From Bacteroidales bacterium (GTDB lineage Bacteria > Bacteroidota > Bacteroidia > Bacteroidales > BM520), in contig JAEEQW010000006.1 of NCBI GenBank assembly GCA_016285515.1, positions 64,078 through 128,077 on the forward strand: a stretch of DNA of 64,000 nucleotides, given 5' to 3'. This document shows positions 25,702 through 35,956 of the stretch, piece by piece; the stretch's first letter is position 1; the number at the start of each line of letters is the position of its first letter. The notes beneath the pieces were generated by a model that ran no database searches, was not told the DNA's origin, and saw only the letters and a list, made by a program, of their open reading frames with translations. The position numbers and the translations under genes are program-made.

Positions 25702-27126
25702 TTATTTATTGTTGGCTTTATTTTGTGCCTCCTGTTCCTTTCTTTCCTTTTCTTTAAGAATCTCGTACTGCTCAGAGAAACTCTTATTGGCAAATACAGG
25801 CAGTTCCAGCCAGTCATCAAGCTGGCCTGTAAGATGCTTCAATTTCTTATCCTTCGACATAATACCCTTCCTGTCGAGTTTCTTCCTCTTTGACAGATGC
25901 TTCTGAAGACCTGTTATGAAATCCTTATCATTCTGTGAGCAATAATTCTTATCGACAATAGTCTGACGTACCTGCACAATCAGTGAAGGAAAATCAATGT
26001 TCACAGGACATGCTTCAGAACACTTTCCGCAGAGCGTGCATAAAAACGGAAGAAAATGATAATTGTCGAGTGATTTGGTCATAGGATTGAAAATCAATCC
26101 AATAGGACCAGGGAAGGCGCTGGAATACAGCGTACCCGTACCGCACCTGTAAACCGGACAAACATTCATGCAGGCACCGCAGTTGATGCAACGCAATGCA
26201 GTACTCATGTTATTGTCATTGAGCAAGGATATTCTTTTGCTTGAAGTAATTATTACGTAAGTTTCGGAAGGTTCCCCATCGAAAGTGAGACCATTGGAAC
26301 CAGAAATAATATTGCAATATACCGGCAACTTTTGTCCGTAAGCGTATGAACTATACATCGGAACAAGTGTCTCCAAATCCGCAATATTTGCAATAATCTG
26401 ATTGATTGAAGCAATGAATATCCGCGTTTTAGCATAAAGCTGAGCTTTTTGAAATGCCCCTTCGTTGTCAATTACGACAACAGAACCGGTATCGGCGGCC
26501 AAAAAGTTGACTCCGGAAATAAATACATCGGCATTCTTCATCTTTATGTCGTTATCAGCTCGTATCTCACTGATTAACAAAGGTATAGTGGCACTGTCAT
26601 CTCCACCGTAATTCTTCGACAACTGCTGAATGATATCCTCACTGTTACAATTGATGGCTGGAAAAGCAGGATGCTGGTCAGTGTTTTTCACATAATCAAT
26701 ATCGGCAGCTATATTGTCAATATTAAGTTCACTGACATCATCGACCTTCTTGCCCACAGAGGCCTTTATTCCGATATCATCAAGGATGTTGTTGCTGTTT
26801 ATGACCACATTCTTTGCCTTTTTGTCTTTGATGATTTTCAAAACAGTATTGCATACATCATTGTTATTCATTGAAAAACATACATATCCACCATTCTTTT
26901 TGAATCCTGTTTCAAAATCAAAAGCGATTCTATCAATAGTGTAAAGCGACTTGTCGATTATAGCAGTGGTCTTTTCTTTGGCACTTTCCACATCGGAAAA
27001 CTGGTCAAGACTTTTGTCATGATTTTCTTCCCAATTATGTATATTGTTGGCAAGCTTTGTTTTCTGGTCTACATTAGAACAAAGTTGTTCGGATCTTTGG
27101 AGTAAATCAAAATATAAGTCACTCAT
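25702..27126 (-). CDS. LutB/LldF-like iron-sulfur protein
   Basis: 474 residues. The N-terminal two-thirds is a LUD-type domain and the C-terminal part holds two four-cysteine [4Fe-4S] motifs, CINCGACMNVCPVYRC and CTLCGKCSEACPVNI, with the linking SSAFPGPIGLIFNP typical of LutB. LutB works with LutA and LutC in oxidising L-lactate to pyruvate, passing electrons to the membrane pool. Neither partner is next to it: the neighbours are rpiB (9 bp upstream) and glnS, so the complex partners must be elsewhere or the protein has another role. The C-terminal tail is highly charged. Confidence 0.88.
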   Translation of the reverse strand: MSDLYFDLLQRSEQLCSNVDQKTKLANNIHNWEENHDKSLDQFSDVESAKEKTTAIIDKSLYTIDRIAFDFETGFKKNGGYVCFSMNNNDVCNTVLKIIKDKKAKNVVINSNNILDDIGIKASVGKKVDDVSELNIDNIAADIDYVKNTDQHPAFPAINCNSEDIIQQLSKNYGGDDSATIPLLISEIRADNDIKMKNADVFISGVNFLAADTGSVVVIDNEGAFQKAQLYAKTRIFIASINQIIANIADLETLVPMYSSYAYGQKLPVYCNIISGSNGLTFDGEPSETYVIITSSKRISLLNDNNMSTALRCINCGACMNVCPVYRCGTGTLYSSAFPGPIGLIFNPMTKSLDNYHFLPFLCTLCGKCSEACPVNIDFPSLIVQVRQTIVDKNYCSQNDKDFITGLQKHLSKRKKLDRKGIMSKDKKLKHLTGQLDDWLELPVFANKSFSEQYEILKEKERKEQEAQNKANNK

Positions 27127-27135
27127 AATTAAAAA

Positions 27136-27663
27136 TTATAGGGAATGATTAATATTAATTTTTTCAATCCTTCTCTGATGGCGTCCGCCTTCAAAAGAAG
27201 TGGAAAAGAAAGTTTCCACTATCTCAAGTGCATATTCCTTTTCTATAAAACGGGCAGGAAGAATGACTATATTGGCATCATTATGCTGACGGGCAAGACG
27301 GGCGATATCCACATTCCAACACAAAGCCGCACGCACATCGGGATATTTGTTGGCAGTCATCGACATGCCGTTTCCAGTACCACATATCAATATTCCTTTC
27401 ATAAGTTCACCATTGCTGACCCTTAAAGCCAACTGATGTGCAAAATCAGGATAATCGACACTTTCAGCACTTTTCGTTCCAAAATCAATAAACTCAATTT
27501 CTTTCGACATGTTCTTTTTCAAATATTCCTTCAACTCATATCCTGCATGGTCGGATGCTATTCCAATCATAAACTTTCTCTTTTCCATCATCTCAAAGCG
27601 AATTTTGCTTGTTTCATAGTCGCAACTTGCATTGTCAACAATTATTCCTGCAACATTTTCCAT
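27136..27663 (-). CDS. rpiB: Ribose-5-phosphate isomerase B
   Basis: Interconverts ribose 5-phosphate and ribulose 5-phosphate in the pentose phosphate pathway. Motifs IGIASDHAGYELKEYL, DFGTKSAESVDYPDFAHQLA, GILICGTGNGMSMTANK and ARQHNDANIVILPARFI are diagnostic of the RpiB/LacAB fold. From the first ATG (27663) the protein is 175 residues, about 25 more than usual; the internal ATG at 27588 would give 150 residues, the normal length, so the true start is uncertain. It is the first gene of the operon and its upstream side faces the proposed origin. Confidence 0.92.
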   Translation of the reverse strand: MENVAGIIVDNASCDYETSKIRFEMMEKRKFMIGIASDHAGYELKEYLKKNMSKEIEFIDFGTKSAESVDYPDFAHQLALRVSNGELMKGILICGTGNGMSMTANKYPDVRAALCWNVDIARLARQHNDANIVILPARFIEKEYALEIVETFFSTSFEGGRHQRRIEKININHSL

Positions 27664-27690
27664 AATTGATATTAATAGTTAAAAATTTTA

Positions 27691-27698
27691 CAAAAATA
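27691..27698 (-). promoter_or_regulatory. rpiB operon promoter, -7 box TATTTTTG
   Basis: Minus-strand TATTTTTG 27 bases before the first rpiB ATG, at the left edge of the proposed origin. Confidence 0.5.
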
Positions 27699-28107
27699 AT
27701 CAATAATCGGTGATTTACAATTATAGACTATTAAAAAAACTGCACGCTAATTTTTCTGTTCATTTTTTTGTTAACTCTGATGTTGATTTGTGTTGATATT
27801 TTGTTAACGGTGTTAATTACTTTTATTTTTGAACAGAATTAAACAATTATGAACAGTTTTTTCAAAAGCGTTTTTAACGTTGATAACAGAAAAATCTGTT
27901 AACCGTTAATTCTGTTGATAATTTTTTCATCCAAAAATTCTGTTTGGTTTTCAAAAGGTTATTTCATTTTTAAAAAAAAGAAATTAACAATCGTATTATT
28001 CCCCATTGGTGACAATTTTGTTATCAACAATATTAACATGACTACTATTCCGAACAAATTTTTTTTAAAAAAAAATCTTATTTAATAATAAAGTGGCAAG
28101 ATGTTGA

Positions 28108-28115
28108 TAACTTTG
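28108..28115 (+). promoter_or_regulatory. MORN-protein promoter, -7 box TAACTTTG
   Basis: TAACTTTGCAAAG, 28 bases before the ATG at 28144. It overlaps the last base positions of the TGTTGATAA nonamer at 28102-28110, so a protein bound there would compete with transcription. Confidence 0.55.
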
Positions 28116-28143
28116 CAAAGTTATTTAAAATTGTATCATGTAA

Positions 28144-29631
28144 ATGAAAAAGACTATACTTTTTTTATTATTTGTAGTTATTTCGTATTTTGCTTATAAT
28201 CAAGATATTGGTTCTGACTTTGTCCAGTTTTACTATCCTAATGGCAAGGTTGTTTCAAGTGAAGGATTCATGGTTGACGGCAAGCCTGACGGGTATTGGA
28301 AGTCGTATTATGAAAACGGAAACCTGAAATCTGAAGGCAACAGAAAGAATTTTCTTCTTGACGGTGAATGGAAATTTTATAAAGAGGACGGTTCCATAAG
28401 CCAATTGATAACTTATTCGGAAGGAAAAAAGAATGGTAAGAGGATTACATATACTTCTGAATATGTTTTGGAGGAAAACTTTTACGATGATACAAAAGAA
28501 GGAATGTCATACATTTATGATATTGACAATCATTTGGTTTCATCCGTTAATTTTTCGAACGGCGTTGAAAACGGCATTAAAAAGGAATTTGCGGAAGATG
28601 GAAGAATCATTCGTATTACTGATTACAACAAGGGCTTTATAATTTCGAGTGAATGGATAAACAGGATGGACGGCAGTGGCAGAAAGCAGGGAAAATGGCT
28701 GACATTTCATGATAATGGCAATATCGCGACAGAGTCATTTTATTTGAATGACAAACTTAACGGTTATGTGAAACATTATGATGAAAATGGAAAACTGACC
28801 GATATTGAAAAATATGATAGCGGCAAAAAGGAAGAGTTGGCAAAGGATGAAGTAAAGGCTGATGTTAGAAAAGAATATCATCCTAACGGAAAAATCAAGA
28901 CTATAGCAACTTACAAAAACGGATTGCCGGAAGGCATCAGACGTGAATATGATGAAAAAGGGAATATCAGTGGTTCGTATGTTTTTGAGAATGGCAAAAT
29001 TGTGAGTGAAGGAATTATAGACGAACAACTTACGAGACATGGTCCATGGAAAGACTACTATAGTAATGGAAATGTTAAGGCGGAAGGAAAATACAACAAT
29101 GGTTTGAGAGTCGGTCAGTGGTCATTTTACAATATTGACGGCAATATTGAGCAGGAGGGTGAATACGATGACAAAGGACGTTATACGGGTCAATGGATTT
29201 TTTACTATCCCTCAGGCAATATCTTAAAAGAAGAAACGTATATGGAAGGCAAGGAATACGGCATGTATGTTGAATATTCCGATGAAGGAATGATAATAGT
29301 CCAGGGCAATTACAATTATGGAATGAAGGAAGGCAAATGGACATATTCCATTAATGGCATTGTGGAAACGGGTGAATATCTGAATGACAAGAAAGACGGT
29401 TACTGGACTATAGCGTTCGATGACGGAGCAATGCTTGAAGAGGGAAATTTTATTGAGGATAATCCTGACGGGGAATACAGATGGTACTATACTACCGGTG
29501 CTGCTGCCGGAAAGATATGTCTTATAGGCAGATACATCAACGGGCAGCGTAATGGAGACTGGATTTATTTTGACGAGGAAGGAAACATTGATTTAATTGT
29601 GACTTACAATGATGGAGACGAAGTTGAATAA
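28144..29631 (+). CDS. Secreted MORN-repeat (YwqK-like) protein
   Basis: 495 residues. A signal peptide (MKKTILFLLFVVISYFAYNQ) is followed by some fifteen tandem repeats of about 21-24 residues of the bacterial MORN variant type, consensus G-x-W-x-x-Y-x-x-N-G-x-x-x-x-E-G (for example GYWKSYYENGNLKSEG and GQWSFYNIDGNIEQEG). They cover almost the whole chain and should form an elongated beta sheet outside the inner membrane. Some databases label such repeats 'YwqK antitoxin', but no toxin partner is present and that name should not be taken as function. It overlaps tadA by 23 bp. Confidence 0.88.
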   Translation: MKKTILFLLFVVISYFAYNQDIGSDFVQFYYPNGKVVSSEGFMVDGKPDGYWKSYYENGNLKSEGNRKNFLLDGEWKFYKEDGSISQLITYSEGKKNGKRITYTSEYVLEENFYDDTKEGMSYIYDIDNHLVSSVNFSNGVENGIKKEFAEDGRIIRITDYNKGFIISSEWINRMDGSGRKQGKWLTFHDNGNIATESFYLNDKLNGYVKHYDENGKLTDIEKYDSGKKEELAKDEVKADVRKEYHPNGKIKTIATYKNGLPEGIRREYDEKGNISGSYVFENGKIVSEGIIDEQLTRHGPWKDYYSNGNVKAEGKYNNGLRVGQWSFYNIDGNIEQEGEYDDKGRYTGQWIFYYPSGNILKEETYMEGKEYGMYVEYSDEGMIIVQGNYNYGMKEGKWTYSINGIVETGEYLNDKKDGYWTIAFDDGAMLEEGNFIEDNPDGEYRWYYTTGAAAGKICLIGRYINGQRNGDWIYFDEEGNIDLIVTYNDGDEVE

Positions 29632-30061
29632 TGACGAATATTTTATGAAAATTGCCTTGTTAGAGGCTAAAAAGGCCTTTGATGAGGGAGAAATACCTAT
29701 AGGTGCAGTAGTCGTCTATAAGGACAAGATATTGGCGCGGGCGCATAATCAGACCGAATTGCTCAATGATTGTACGGCTCATGCTGAAATGCTCTGCATT
29801 ACCGGTGCCATGAATGAAGCTGGAACAAAATATCTCAGGAATTGTACACTTTATGTCACCCTTGAACCTTGTGTGATGTGTGCCGGTGCGTTGAACTGGG
29901 CTCAGATAGGGCGTCTTGTCTATGCAGCATCGGATGTCAAATGCGGGTATTCACAGACAGGAGACCTGCTGCATAAATCAACGGTTGTGGAACACGGTAT
30001 TATGGCTTCGGAAGCCGAATCATTGCTGAAGAAGTTTTTCAGGAAACTGAGGGAAAAATAA
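29609..30061 (+). CDS. tadA: tRNA adenosine(34) deaminase TadA
   Basis: Converts A34 to inosine in tRNA-Arg(ACG). 150 residues. The zinc site is TAHAEML (His-Ala-Glu with the proton-shuttling Glu) and PCVMCAGAL (PCxxC). The N-terminal FMKIALLEAKKAFDEGEIPIGAVVV is the standard family start. The first ATG at 29609 lies inside the end of the MORN gene, giving a 23-bp overlap. The 3' end also overlaps the convergent sensor kinase by 23 bp. Confidence 0.94.
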   Translation: MMETKLNNDEYFMKIALLEAKKAFDEGEIPIGAVVVYKDKILARAHNQTELLNDCTAHAEMLCITGAMNEAGTKYLRNCTLYVTLEPCVMCAGALNWAQIGRLVYAASDVKCGYSQTGDLLHKSTVVEHGIMASEAESLLKKFFRKLREK

Positions 30062-33602: not shown

Positions 33603-33618
33603 TGTTCCACGTGGAACC
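33603..33618. other. parS: parS-like ParB binding site (15 of 16 match)
   Basis: TGTTCCACGTGGAACC in the gap between the mnmG stop and the kinase start. It differs only in the last base from the palindrome TGTTCCACGTGGAACA, a form of the conserved bacterial parS site. Confidence 0.8.
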
Positions 33619-33621
33619 ATA

Positions 33622-35499
33622 TTAAATTCCGAGTACTATCATCAGTGCGGCTATGTCGGAAGGAGACACGCCGGGTATGCGGGATGCCTGACCTATGGTT
33701 GATGGTTTTATCCTTGACAGCTTTTCACGTGATTCGTATGAAATGGAAGTTATGGCCATATAGTCAATGGTGTTTTTCAGATGTATTCTGTCCATTGAGT
33801 TGAGCCTGTCGGCCATGATTTCCTCTTTGTTGATATATCCTTTGTATTTGATTTGTATTTCTGTTTCTTCCAAAGTTTCATCGTCTATCTTGTTTCCGAT
33901 GATGAAATTCTGGAGTCCGACGGAGAAATTTTTTAATGTTCCGATATTGACATCAGGGCGGAGAATTATCTTTGACAACCTGGTGCTTTCGTTGACAGGA
34001 CCCGACAGTAATGTTGAAAGATAAGGGTTGGCTTCGTCTTGGGTTATGTTAGTCTCTTCAAGATATGTGCTCAGCCTTTTTATCTTGTCAATCTTTTCCT
34101 CTACCCTATTGTATCGTTTGTCATCGGCGAGGCCTATATGGTGTGACAATGGTGTAAGTCTTATGTCAGCATTGTCCTGGCGAAGCAGAATCCTGTGTTC
34201 GGCACGTGAGGTGAACATACGGTACGGTTCGTCAACACCCTTGGTTATAAGATCGTCAATGAGCACACCGATATACGCCTCGGAACGGGACAGGACTATC
34301 GGCTCTTCATTGCGGATTTTTCTTACGGCGTTGATGCCGGCCATAAGACCTTGACATGCTGCCTCCTCATATCCGGTGGTCCCGTTTATCTGTCCGGTGA
34401 AGTAAAGATTGGATATCTGTTTTGTCTCAAGCGTGCTTTTCAACTGTGTGGGCTGGAAAAAGTCATATTCGATGGCATATCCGGGCTTCATGAATTTGGC
34501 ATGTTCGAAACCTGCCATCTTACGGATGGCCCTGTATTGTATCTCTTCCGGAAGAGATGAGGAGAATCCGTTGAGATAAACTTCAATATTGTTGAATCCC
34601 TCAGGCTCTACGAAAATAGGATGCTGGGTCTTTTCGGCAAATCTGTTCAGCTTATCTTCAATTGAGGGACAGTATCTCGGTCCTTTGCCTTTTATGCGTC
34701 CTTGGAACATTGGTGAACGGTCAAACCCCTCCTTCAGGATGTTATGCACTTCTGGCGAGGTGTGGGCAATATAGCATTTGCGTTGTTTGGAAATGTCAAG
34801 AAATTGCGTCTCGTCAGAGAAGCTGAATTTTCCGGGGACATCGTCAAAAGGCTGCTCAATTAGCGCCGAATAGTCTATGGTTCTGCCGTCGATTCTGACA
34901 GGTGTGCCGGTTTTCAGCTTTTCTACGGTGAAGCCGAGTGACAGCAGCTGGTCACTTATGCCGACAGAATTTTGCTCTCCGAGCCTGCCTCCTGCGAATG
35001 ACACTTCTCCAATATGGATTCTGCCATTCAGGAAGGTTCCGTTGGCAAGTATTACGGCTTTGGCATAAACCGACTTCCCCATGGCTGTTCTGATGCCTTT
35101 TACAGTGTCGTCTTCGATGATAAGACTTTTGGCATCATCCTGAATGAAATCAAGATTCTTCATTGAGTCAAGCACATTGAGCCATTCGAGGGTGAACAGT
35201 CTCTTGTCGTTTTGGGAACGTGGACTCCACATCGCAGGACCCTTTGACCGGTTCAGCATCTTGAACTGCAGCATCGAGCGGTCAGCGACTATTCCCGTGT
35301 ATCCTCCCATAGCGTCGATTTCCCTGACTATCTGGCCTTTTGCTATGCCGCCTATTGCCGGATTGCATGACATCCTGGCGACACTCTCCCTGTTCAGTGT
35401 TACCATCAAAGTCTTGGCACCGAGATTCGATGCCGCACACGCAGCTTCGCATCCGGCATGACCCGCTCCAACCACTATTATGTCATATTGGCTTTCCAT
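33622..35499 (-). CDS. mnmG: tRNA U34 5-carboxymethylaminomethyl modification enzyme MnmG (GidA)
   Basis: FAD-dependent half of the MnmE-MnmG complex, modifying wobble uridine in several tRNAs. 625 residues, full length. The dinucleotide-binding motif IIVVGAGHAGCEAACAASNLG is at the N-terminus; signatures CNPAIGGIAKGQIVREIDAMGG (split) and TGQINGTTGYEEAACQGL are clear, as is the C-terminal helical domain (SRIPGVSPSDIAALMI). mnmG is often the origin-side gene in bacteria, and here it sits between two parS-like sites. The mnmE partner is not in the window. It follows ybeY by 1 bp. Confidence 0.97.
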   Translation of the reverse strand: MESQYDIIVVGAGHAGCEAACAASNLGAKTLMVTLNRESVARMSCNPAIGGIAKGQIVREIDAMGGYTGIVADRSMLQFKMLNRSKGPAMWSPRSQNDKRLFTLEWLNVLDSMKNLDFIQDDAKSLIIEDDTVKGIRTAMGKSVYAKAVILANGTFLNGRIHIGEVSFAGGRLGEQNSVGISDQLLSLGFTVEKLKTGTPVRIDGRTIDYSALIEQPFDDVPGKFSFSDETQFLDISKQRKCYIAHTSPEVHNILKEGFDRSPMFQGRIKGKGPRYCPSIEDKLNRFAEKTQHPIFVEPEGFNNIEVYLNGFSSSLPEEIQYRAIRKMAGFEHAKFMKPGYAIEYDFFQPTQLKSTLETKQISNLYFTGQINGTTGYEEAACQGLMAGINAVRKIRNEEPIVLSRSEAYIGVLIDDLITKGVDEPYRMFTSRAEHRILLRQDNADIRLTPLSHHIGLADDKRYNRVEEKIDKIKRLSTYLEETNITQDEANPYLSTLLSGPVNESTRLSKIILRPDVNIGTLKNFSVGLQNFIIGNKIDDETLEETEIQIKYKGYINKEEIMADRLNSMDRIHLKNTIDYMAITSISYESREKLSRIKPSTIGQASRIPGVSPSDIAALMIVLGI

Positions 35500-35500
35500 T

Positions 35501-35956
35501 TCACTTTTGTTCCACGTGGAACATCTTTATGTATTTCTCTTGTTTCTCAATCATTATGCTCTTCTCATCCTCGTCTCTCTTGTCTTCATAACCGCATAAA
35601 TGCAGAGTGCCGTGAACCATTATCCTGAATAATTCCTCCTGAACATGGCAGCCGTATGTCTTTGCGTTCTCCCTCACCCTGTCGATGCTGATGTAAACAT
35701 CCCCGAAAACATCCTTTTCCTTTTCGTTGTACGGAAATGTTATGGTATCGGTGTCAGTGTCATGTCCGAGATATTTTTCATTCAATGACAGCATGGTGCT
35801 CTCATCGGTGAGAATTATATTGATGGCAACGAGCCGCTTCTTCTCGGCTTTTACGACTTTGTAAAGGGCTTCTTTGATTTTCAGGATGTTTCTGACACGA
35901 TATTGGACTGTGTCATCGCTGCAAATTATGATGTTCTTTCTGTATTCGACTTCCAT
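35501..35956 (-). CDS. ybeY: Endoribonuclease YbeY (rRNA maturation)
   Basis: A 151-residue UPF0054 protein needed for 16S rRNA 3'-end processing and ribosome quality control. The metal motif is HGTLHLCGYEDKRDED. The two histidines of HGxLH are present, and the third position is Asp rather than the usual His of GYDH, a change I believe is common in Bacteroidota. The last seven residues, MFHVEQK, are encoded by the perfect parS palindrome, so the C-terminal tail reflects a DNA constraint as much as protein function. It sits 2 bp after the DUF4175 gene. Confidence 0.93.
   Translation of the reverse strand: MEVEYRKNIIICSDDTVQYRVRNILKIKEALYKVVKAEKKRLVAINIILTDESTMLSLNEKYLGHDTDTDTITFPYNEKEKDVFGDVYISIDRVRENAKTYGCHVQEELFRIMVHGTLHLCGYEDKRDEDEKSIMIEKQEKYIKMFHVEQK
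35508..35523. other. parS: parS ParB binding site, perfect palindrome
   Basis: TGTTCCACGTGGAACA, an exact 16-bp palindrome, inside the final codons of ybeY and 9 bp before the mnmG start. It matches the broadly conserved parS pattern TGTTnCACGTGnAACA. Confidence 0.88.

Follow-up and report, generated by a model that had tools for sequence, protein, structure and literature searches.

The chromosomal replication origin (oriC) of Bacteroidetes is commonly located far from dnaA, as reported in a study of Prevotella intermedia OMA14 (PMC4755523). In this bacterium the oriC, which is an Ori-Finder/DoriC-type prediction, is intergenic, carries multiple DnaA boxes, coincides with a switch in GC skew and is not positioned beside dnaA (PMC4755523). 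The locus discussed here shares these features. Because an oriC far from dnaA has already been published for Bacteroidetes (PMC4755523), the kind of origin is known; as far as we have found, only the use of rpiB as its marker across part of the class is new. In the open-access literature, we did not find rpiB or ribose-5-phosphate isomerase B named as a neighbor of oriC.

The main box at our locus, TTATCAACA, is one of a pair of boxes bound by DnaA domain IV at the oriC of the linear chromosome of Cyanothece ATCC 51142, an origin that is likewise not beside dnaA (PMC4674748). It differs from the present locus in belonging to another phylum, in its linear chromosome and in having fewer boxes. 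Standard DnaA-dependent origins, that of E. coli included, resemble our locus in having clustered nonamers on both strands of AT-rich DNA, and TTATCAACA is one base off their TTATCCACA. In E. coli, mnmG (gidA) likewise lies near oriC; compared with its adjacent position there, it is 5.5 kb away at our locus.

The DNA analyzed, referred to as the window, is a stretch of 64 kb on a 144,781-bp contig (C18) in the draft MAG of an uncultured Bacteroidales bacterium (54 contigs, 2.58 Mb). Within it, an AT-rich intergenic gap of 480 bp (27664..28143) separates the divergent rpiB and MORN-repeat genes. It is highly probable that this gap is the oriC of the bacterium and, we infer, the site of initiation in the cell. 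The reading of the gap as a candidate oriC, proposed in the initial annotation, is supported by the skew minimum of the contig, the box density and the skew switch at the same locus in relatives. At the level of sequence, the box cluster, the switch at the gap, a unique parS pair, a DnaA with a DNA-binding domain and the conservation of the locus in relatives all support it. In kind, the gap would be an ordinary bacterial origin, far from dnaA and adjoining rpiB, which also marks the origin in many relatives.

The gap, its boxes and its flanking genes

The GC content of the gap (22.5%) is the lowest of any 480 bp in the window (mean 42.4%). It had been described as the largest noncoding stretch of the window, and it is the longest, since an apparent void after 60186 that would have exceeded it turned out to be a large ORF that continues past the window end. 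The gap contains six boxes within one mismatch of TTATCMACA, distributed over both strands. Three of these are exact copies of TTATCAACA and predicted DnaA boxes, at 27913..27921 (minus strand), 28021..28029 (plus) and 28102..28110 (minus), just as annotated. The others each have one mismatch: TTATCAACG (27878..27886, minus), which had also been listed as a single-base variant; TTATGAACA (27847..27855, plus), which had gone unlisted; and ATATCAACA (27791..27799, minus). With respect to the two closer variants placed near 27781-27799, ATATCAACA is thus one, whereas TGTTGATTT at 27782 is further off. A further one-mismatch variant, TTGTCAACA (27632..27640, plus), falls within the stretch called as an N-terminal extension of rpiB.

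The cluster is above chance. Dinucleotide shuffling of the gap sequence (1000 shuffles) gave means of 0.03 exact boxes and 0.69 within one mismatch, and no shuffle reached three or six, respectively. The gap is also the densest 480 bp on the 144.8-kb contig, with six boxes, or seven including the one inside the called rpiB start. Across 411 kb of other DNA sampled from the same genome, there were at most four boxes within one mismatch per 480 bp, such that no sampled 480-bp stretch was equally dense. Genome-wide, TTATCMACA is not enriched (108 occurrences in 2.58 Mb vs 102 for the reversed control word), and the signal therefore lies in the clustering: among the 100 matches listed, three within 500 bp occur only in this gap. 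Elsewhere in the genome there are two box pairs 12 bp apart (G000:C42:3547-3567 and G000:C36:29877-29897), one a direct TTATCCACA/TTATCAACA pair and the other an inverted TTATCAACA pair, which are possible DnaA regulatory or titration sites.

On the left, the gap is flanked by rpiB (27136..27663, minus; PF02502 1e-57, TIGR01120 over the cut-off), followed by a lutB-like gene for an iron-sulfur protein (25702..27126, minus; PF02589, synteny, TIGR00273 below the equivalog cut-off), which adjoins rpiB at many of the compared loci. On the right are the genes for the MORN-repeat protein (28144..29631, plus; PF07661 2e-40, synteny) and a tadA-like deaminase (29609..30061, plus; PF14437/PF00383). The called start of rpiB (27570-27663) comprises about 25-31 extra residues that are absent in most homologues. 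Since the RpiB domain and the homologues begin near residue 32 of the called ORF, the stretch around the box at 27632 may be noncoding. Translation probably begins near 27588 or 27570, in which case the origin gap would be larger and would include this box.

A/T tracts lie adjacent to the boxes. One of them, read directly from the sequence at 28053..28092 between two boxes, is a candidate unwinding element. The weakest duplex by nearest-neighbor energy is not unique to the gap, and this measure picks out no single unwinding place.

GC skew, parS and dnaA

Cumulative GC skew was determined over the whole of C18, while the remaining contigs were sampled in 20-kb stretches. Cumulative G minus C has its contig-wide minimum at window position 27777, inside the gap, and nowhere else on C18. 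The change in skew over 6-kb flanks at this position is 0.278, compared with 0.139 at the next best position on C18 and 0.107 at the best position in 20 stretches from elsewhere. Skew is positive throughout in the samples of C25 and C41 and negative throughout in those of C40, C6 and C20. An origin on C18 would predict this pattern, and C18 is the only one of the contigs sampled that switches sign. The switch at the gap is from minus to plus, and in two relatives (G021 and G096) it is seen at the scale of the chromosome.

Gene direction offers weak support for an origin. The genes to the left of the gap are mostly leftward and those further to the right mostly rightward, as initially noted; however, 83% of the coding in the 12 kb immediately right of the gap is leftward. 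Coding in these 12 kb is thus mostly against the direction of the fork, which counts against reading the gap as an origin.

A parS site near the origin is usual in bacteria, albeit not universal, and the present gap has two in its vicinity. Just two places in the 2.58-Mb genome match the perfect parS core GTTCCACGTGGAAC (the reversed word gives 0), and both are in the window, rightward of the gap by 5.5 and 7.4 kb. The initial annotation mentioned parS-like sites nearby; that these are the sole two perfect cores in the genome makes the case stronger than it was put. They flank mnmG/gidA (33622..35499, minus; TIGR00136 7e-243): TGTTCCACGTGGAACC (33603..33618) is positioned just beyond its 3′ end, and the perfect 16-mer TGTTCCACGTGGAACA (35508..35523) is upstream of it, inside the ORF at 35501-35956. 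In the genus of the window the two sites are 1.9 kb apart, unlike the close pairs (26-270 bp) of several relatives (G010:C60:14304, G012:C290:3370, G022:C601:2359, G035:C4:67180, G030:C13:72468 and G037:C1:27450).

The genome encodes a single DnaA of 482 amino acids with PF00308, PF08299 and PF11638, which together represent domains I, III and IV (N-terminal, ATPase and helix-turn-helix) and hence include a DNA-binding domain. That Bacteroidota origins often do not sit beside dnaA was pointed out in the initial annotation and is, as discussed above, already published. Here, dnaA is on contig C41 and the gap on C18, and the origin is therefore not of the dnaA-adjacent (dnaA-dnaN) type. The 20-kb neighborhood of dnaA on C41 has no TTATCMACA, and there is no skew switch around the gene.

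In the model that we favor, DnaA encoded elsewhere in the genome would bind TTATCAACA and the related boxes on both strands. The bound DnaA would form an oligomer and melt an A/T tract next to the boxes, the exact unwinding site being a matter of prediction. Loading of the helicase would then allow two forks to depart in opposite directions, one through rpiB and the other through the MORN gene towards mnmG. ParB is predicted to load at the parS pair and to segregate the newly replicated origins.

The rpiB locus in relatives

Other members of the genus, the family and the order repeat the gene order lutB-rpiB-(380-600 bp)-MORN. In these relatives, boxes and a minus-to-plus switch go with long gaps and are lacking at short ones, with few exceptions; one locus with a short gap, L050, also switches. 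When the comparison is limited to named loci that have at least 4 kb of sequence on either side, the switch is present at 12 of the 14 whose gap beside rpiB measures 250 bp or more, with a mean of 4.5 boxes, vs 0 of 29, with 0 boxes, where the gap is short. Some relatives have long, boxed gaps without a clear switch (L034, L165 and L193). The switch at the rpiB gap is seen in the isolate Marinilabilia rubra (L170) and in several Bacteroidales MAGs. Across the class more widely, a long gap with at least three boxes was present at nine loci, seven of which switch sign; no boxed gap beside rpiB was found in the sampled genomes of other classes.

In one relative, a 1.09-Mb contig (G021:C3) changes sign at the rpiB gap: all 13 stretches on the right of the gap have a positive strand-balanced third-position skew, and 7 of the 9 on its left a negative one. 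In another relative, G096, whose 3.47-Mb chromosome is complete, 10/10 stretches are positive on one arm and 10/12 negative on the other. This chromosome switches at its rpiB gap, at 2.547 Mb, and again between 0.64 and 0.80 Mb, near the antipodal position of 0.81 Mb; its dnaA is at 1.818 Mb. Perfect parS cores are positioned 7-18 kb from rpiB on the same contig in G001, G004, G013, G028 and G035, and in others they are on another draft contig or absent. In G037 they are 17 kb from rpiB, yet this genome has a short rpiB gap that shows no switch.

A genus-wide alignment of the gap was too diverged for footprinting outside one near-identical pair. In a comparison of 19 origin gaps in which no motif was chosen beforehand, TATCAACAT, GTTATCAAC, TTATCAACA and TTATTAACA are among the nonamers with the strongest enrichment, with TTATCAACA and words overlapping it at the top. 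These nonamers fit a lineage box TTAT(C/T)AACA. The variant ATATCAACA is present in 5 of the 19 gaps (0.2 expected). Another word, TCTGATGTT, also occurs in five (0.04 expected), namely in the window (27776), L043, L059, L161 and L170, and in three of these it is followed by NNNAACAG; it has no fixed position or strand in the origin gaps.

Divergent genes need promoters, and the gap might be only the long divergent promoter region of rpiB and the MORN gene, with the boxes as regulatory sites or as words that AT-rich DNA makes likelier by chance. Shuffles of this same AT-rich sequence, however, give 0.03 exact boxes and not the three observed, and neither a skew switch, a parS pair nor the recurrence of boxes in other families would be expected of a promoter, which leaves this explanation very improbable. 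A site for titration or reactivation of DnaA, such as datA or DARS of E. coli, would account for the boxes, and a box cluster by itself does not separate such a site from an origin. There is, however, no reason for it to be located at a skew minimum, as is the case both here and in relatives, and the gap is the densest cluster seen; we consider a site of this type very improbable.

The switch could in principle reflect an inverted segment, an integrated element or a faulty join between assembled pieces, with the true origin elsewhere. MAG contigs can be misjoined, foreign DNA has its own skew, and this draft genome comprises 54 contigs. Independent same-genus assemblies (G001 and G004) nevertheless share both the gene order and the switch. 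Moreover, both recur in other families, which include the complete chromosome with its opposite switch near the antipode, and the probability that we assign to an artifact or rearrangement is close to nil. Taken together, an oriC between rpiB and the MORN gene is the reading that we prefer.

At loci labeled as Bacteroidaceae, Prevotellaceae and Muribaculaceae (e.g., L139, L157 and L184), rpiB mostly lacks an adjoining long gap and boxes, and the origins of these families therefore appear to be located elsewhere. In this respect the Prevotellaceae loci differ from the gap discussed here, despite the general likeness to the predicted P. intermedia origin. The rpiB side, often with lutB, a MORN gene or mnmG near, may be where oriC lay in ancestral Bacteroidia and still commonly lies, apart from dnaA, with a later relocation in these three families; we give this scenario an even chance.

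Placing oriC in an uncultured lineage gives access to the direction of the forks, gene-dosage gradients and growth rates based on read depth for draft genomes. A conserved neighbor gene would, moreover, provide a quick marker of the origin in a phylum where dnaA misleads. If the rpiB locus is indeed ancestral, rpiB would be usable as such a marker for many draft genomes.
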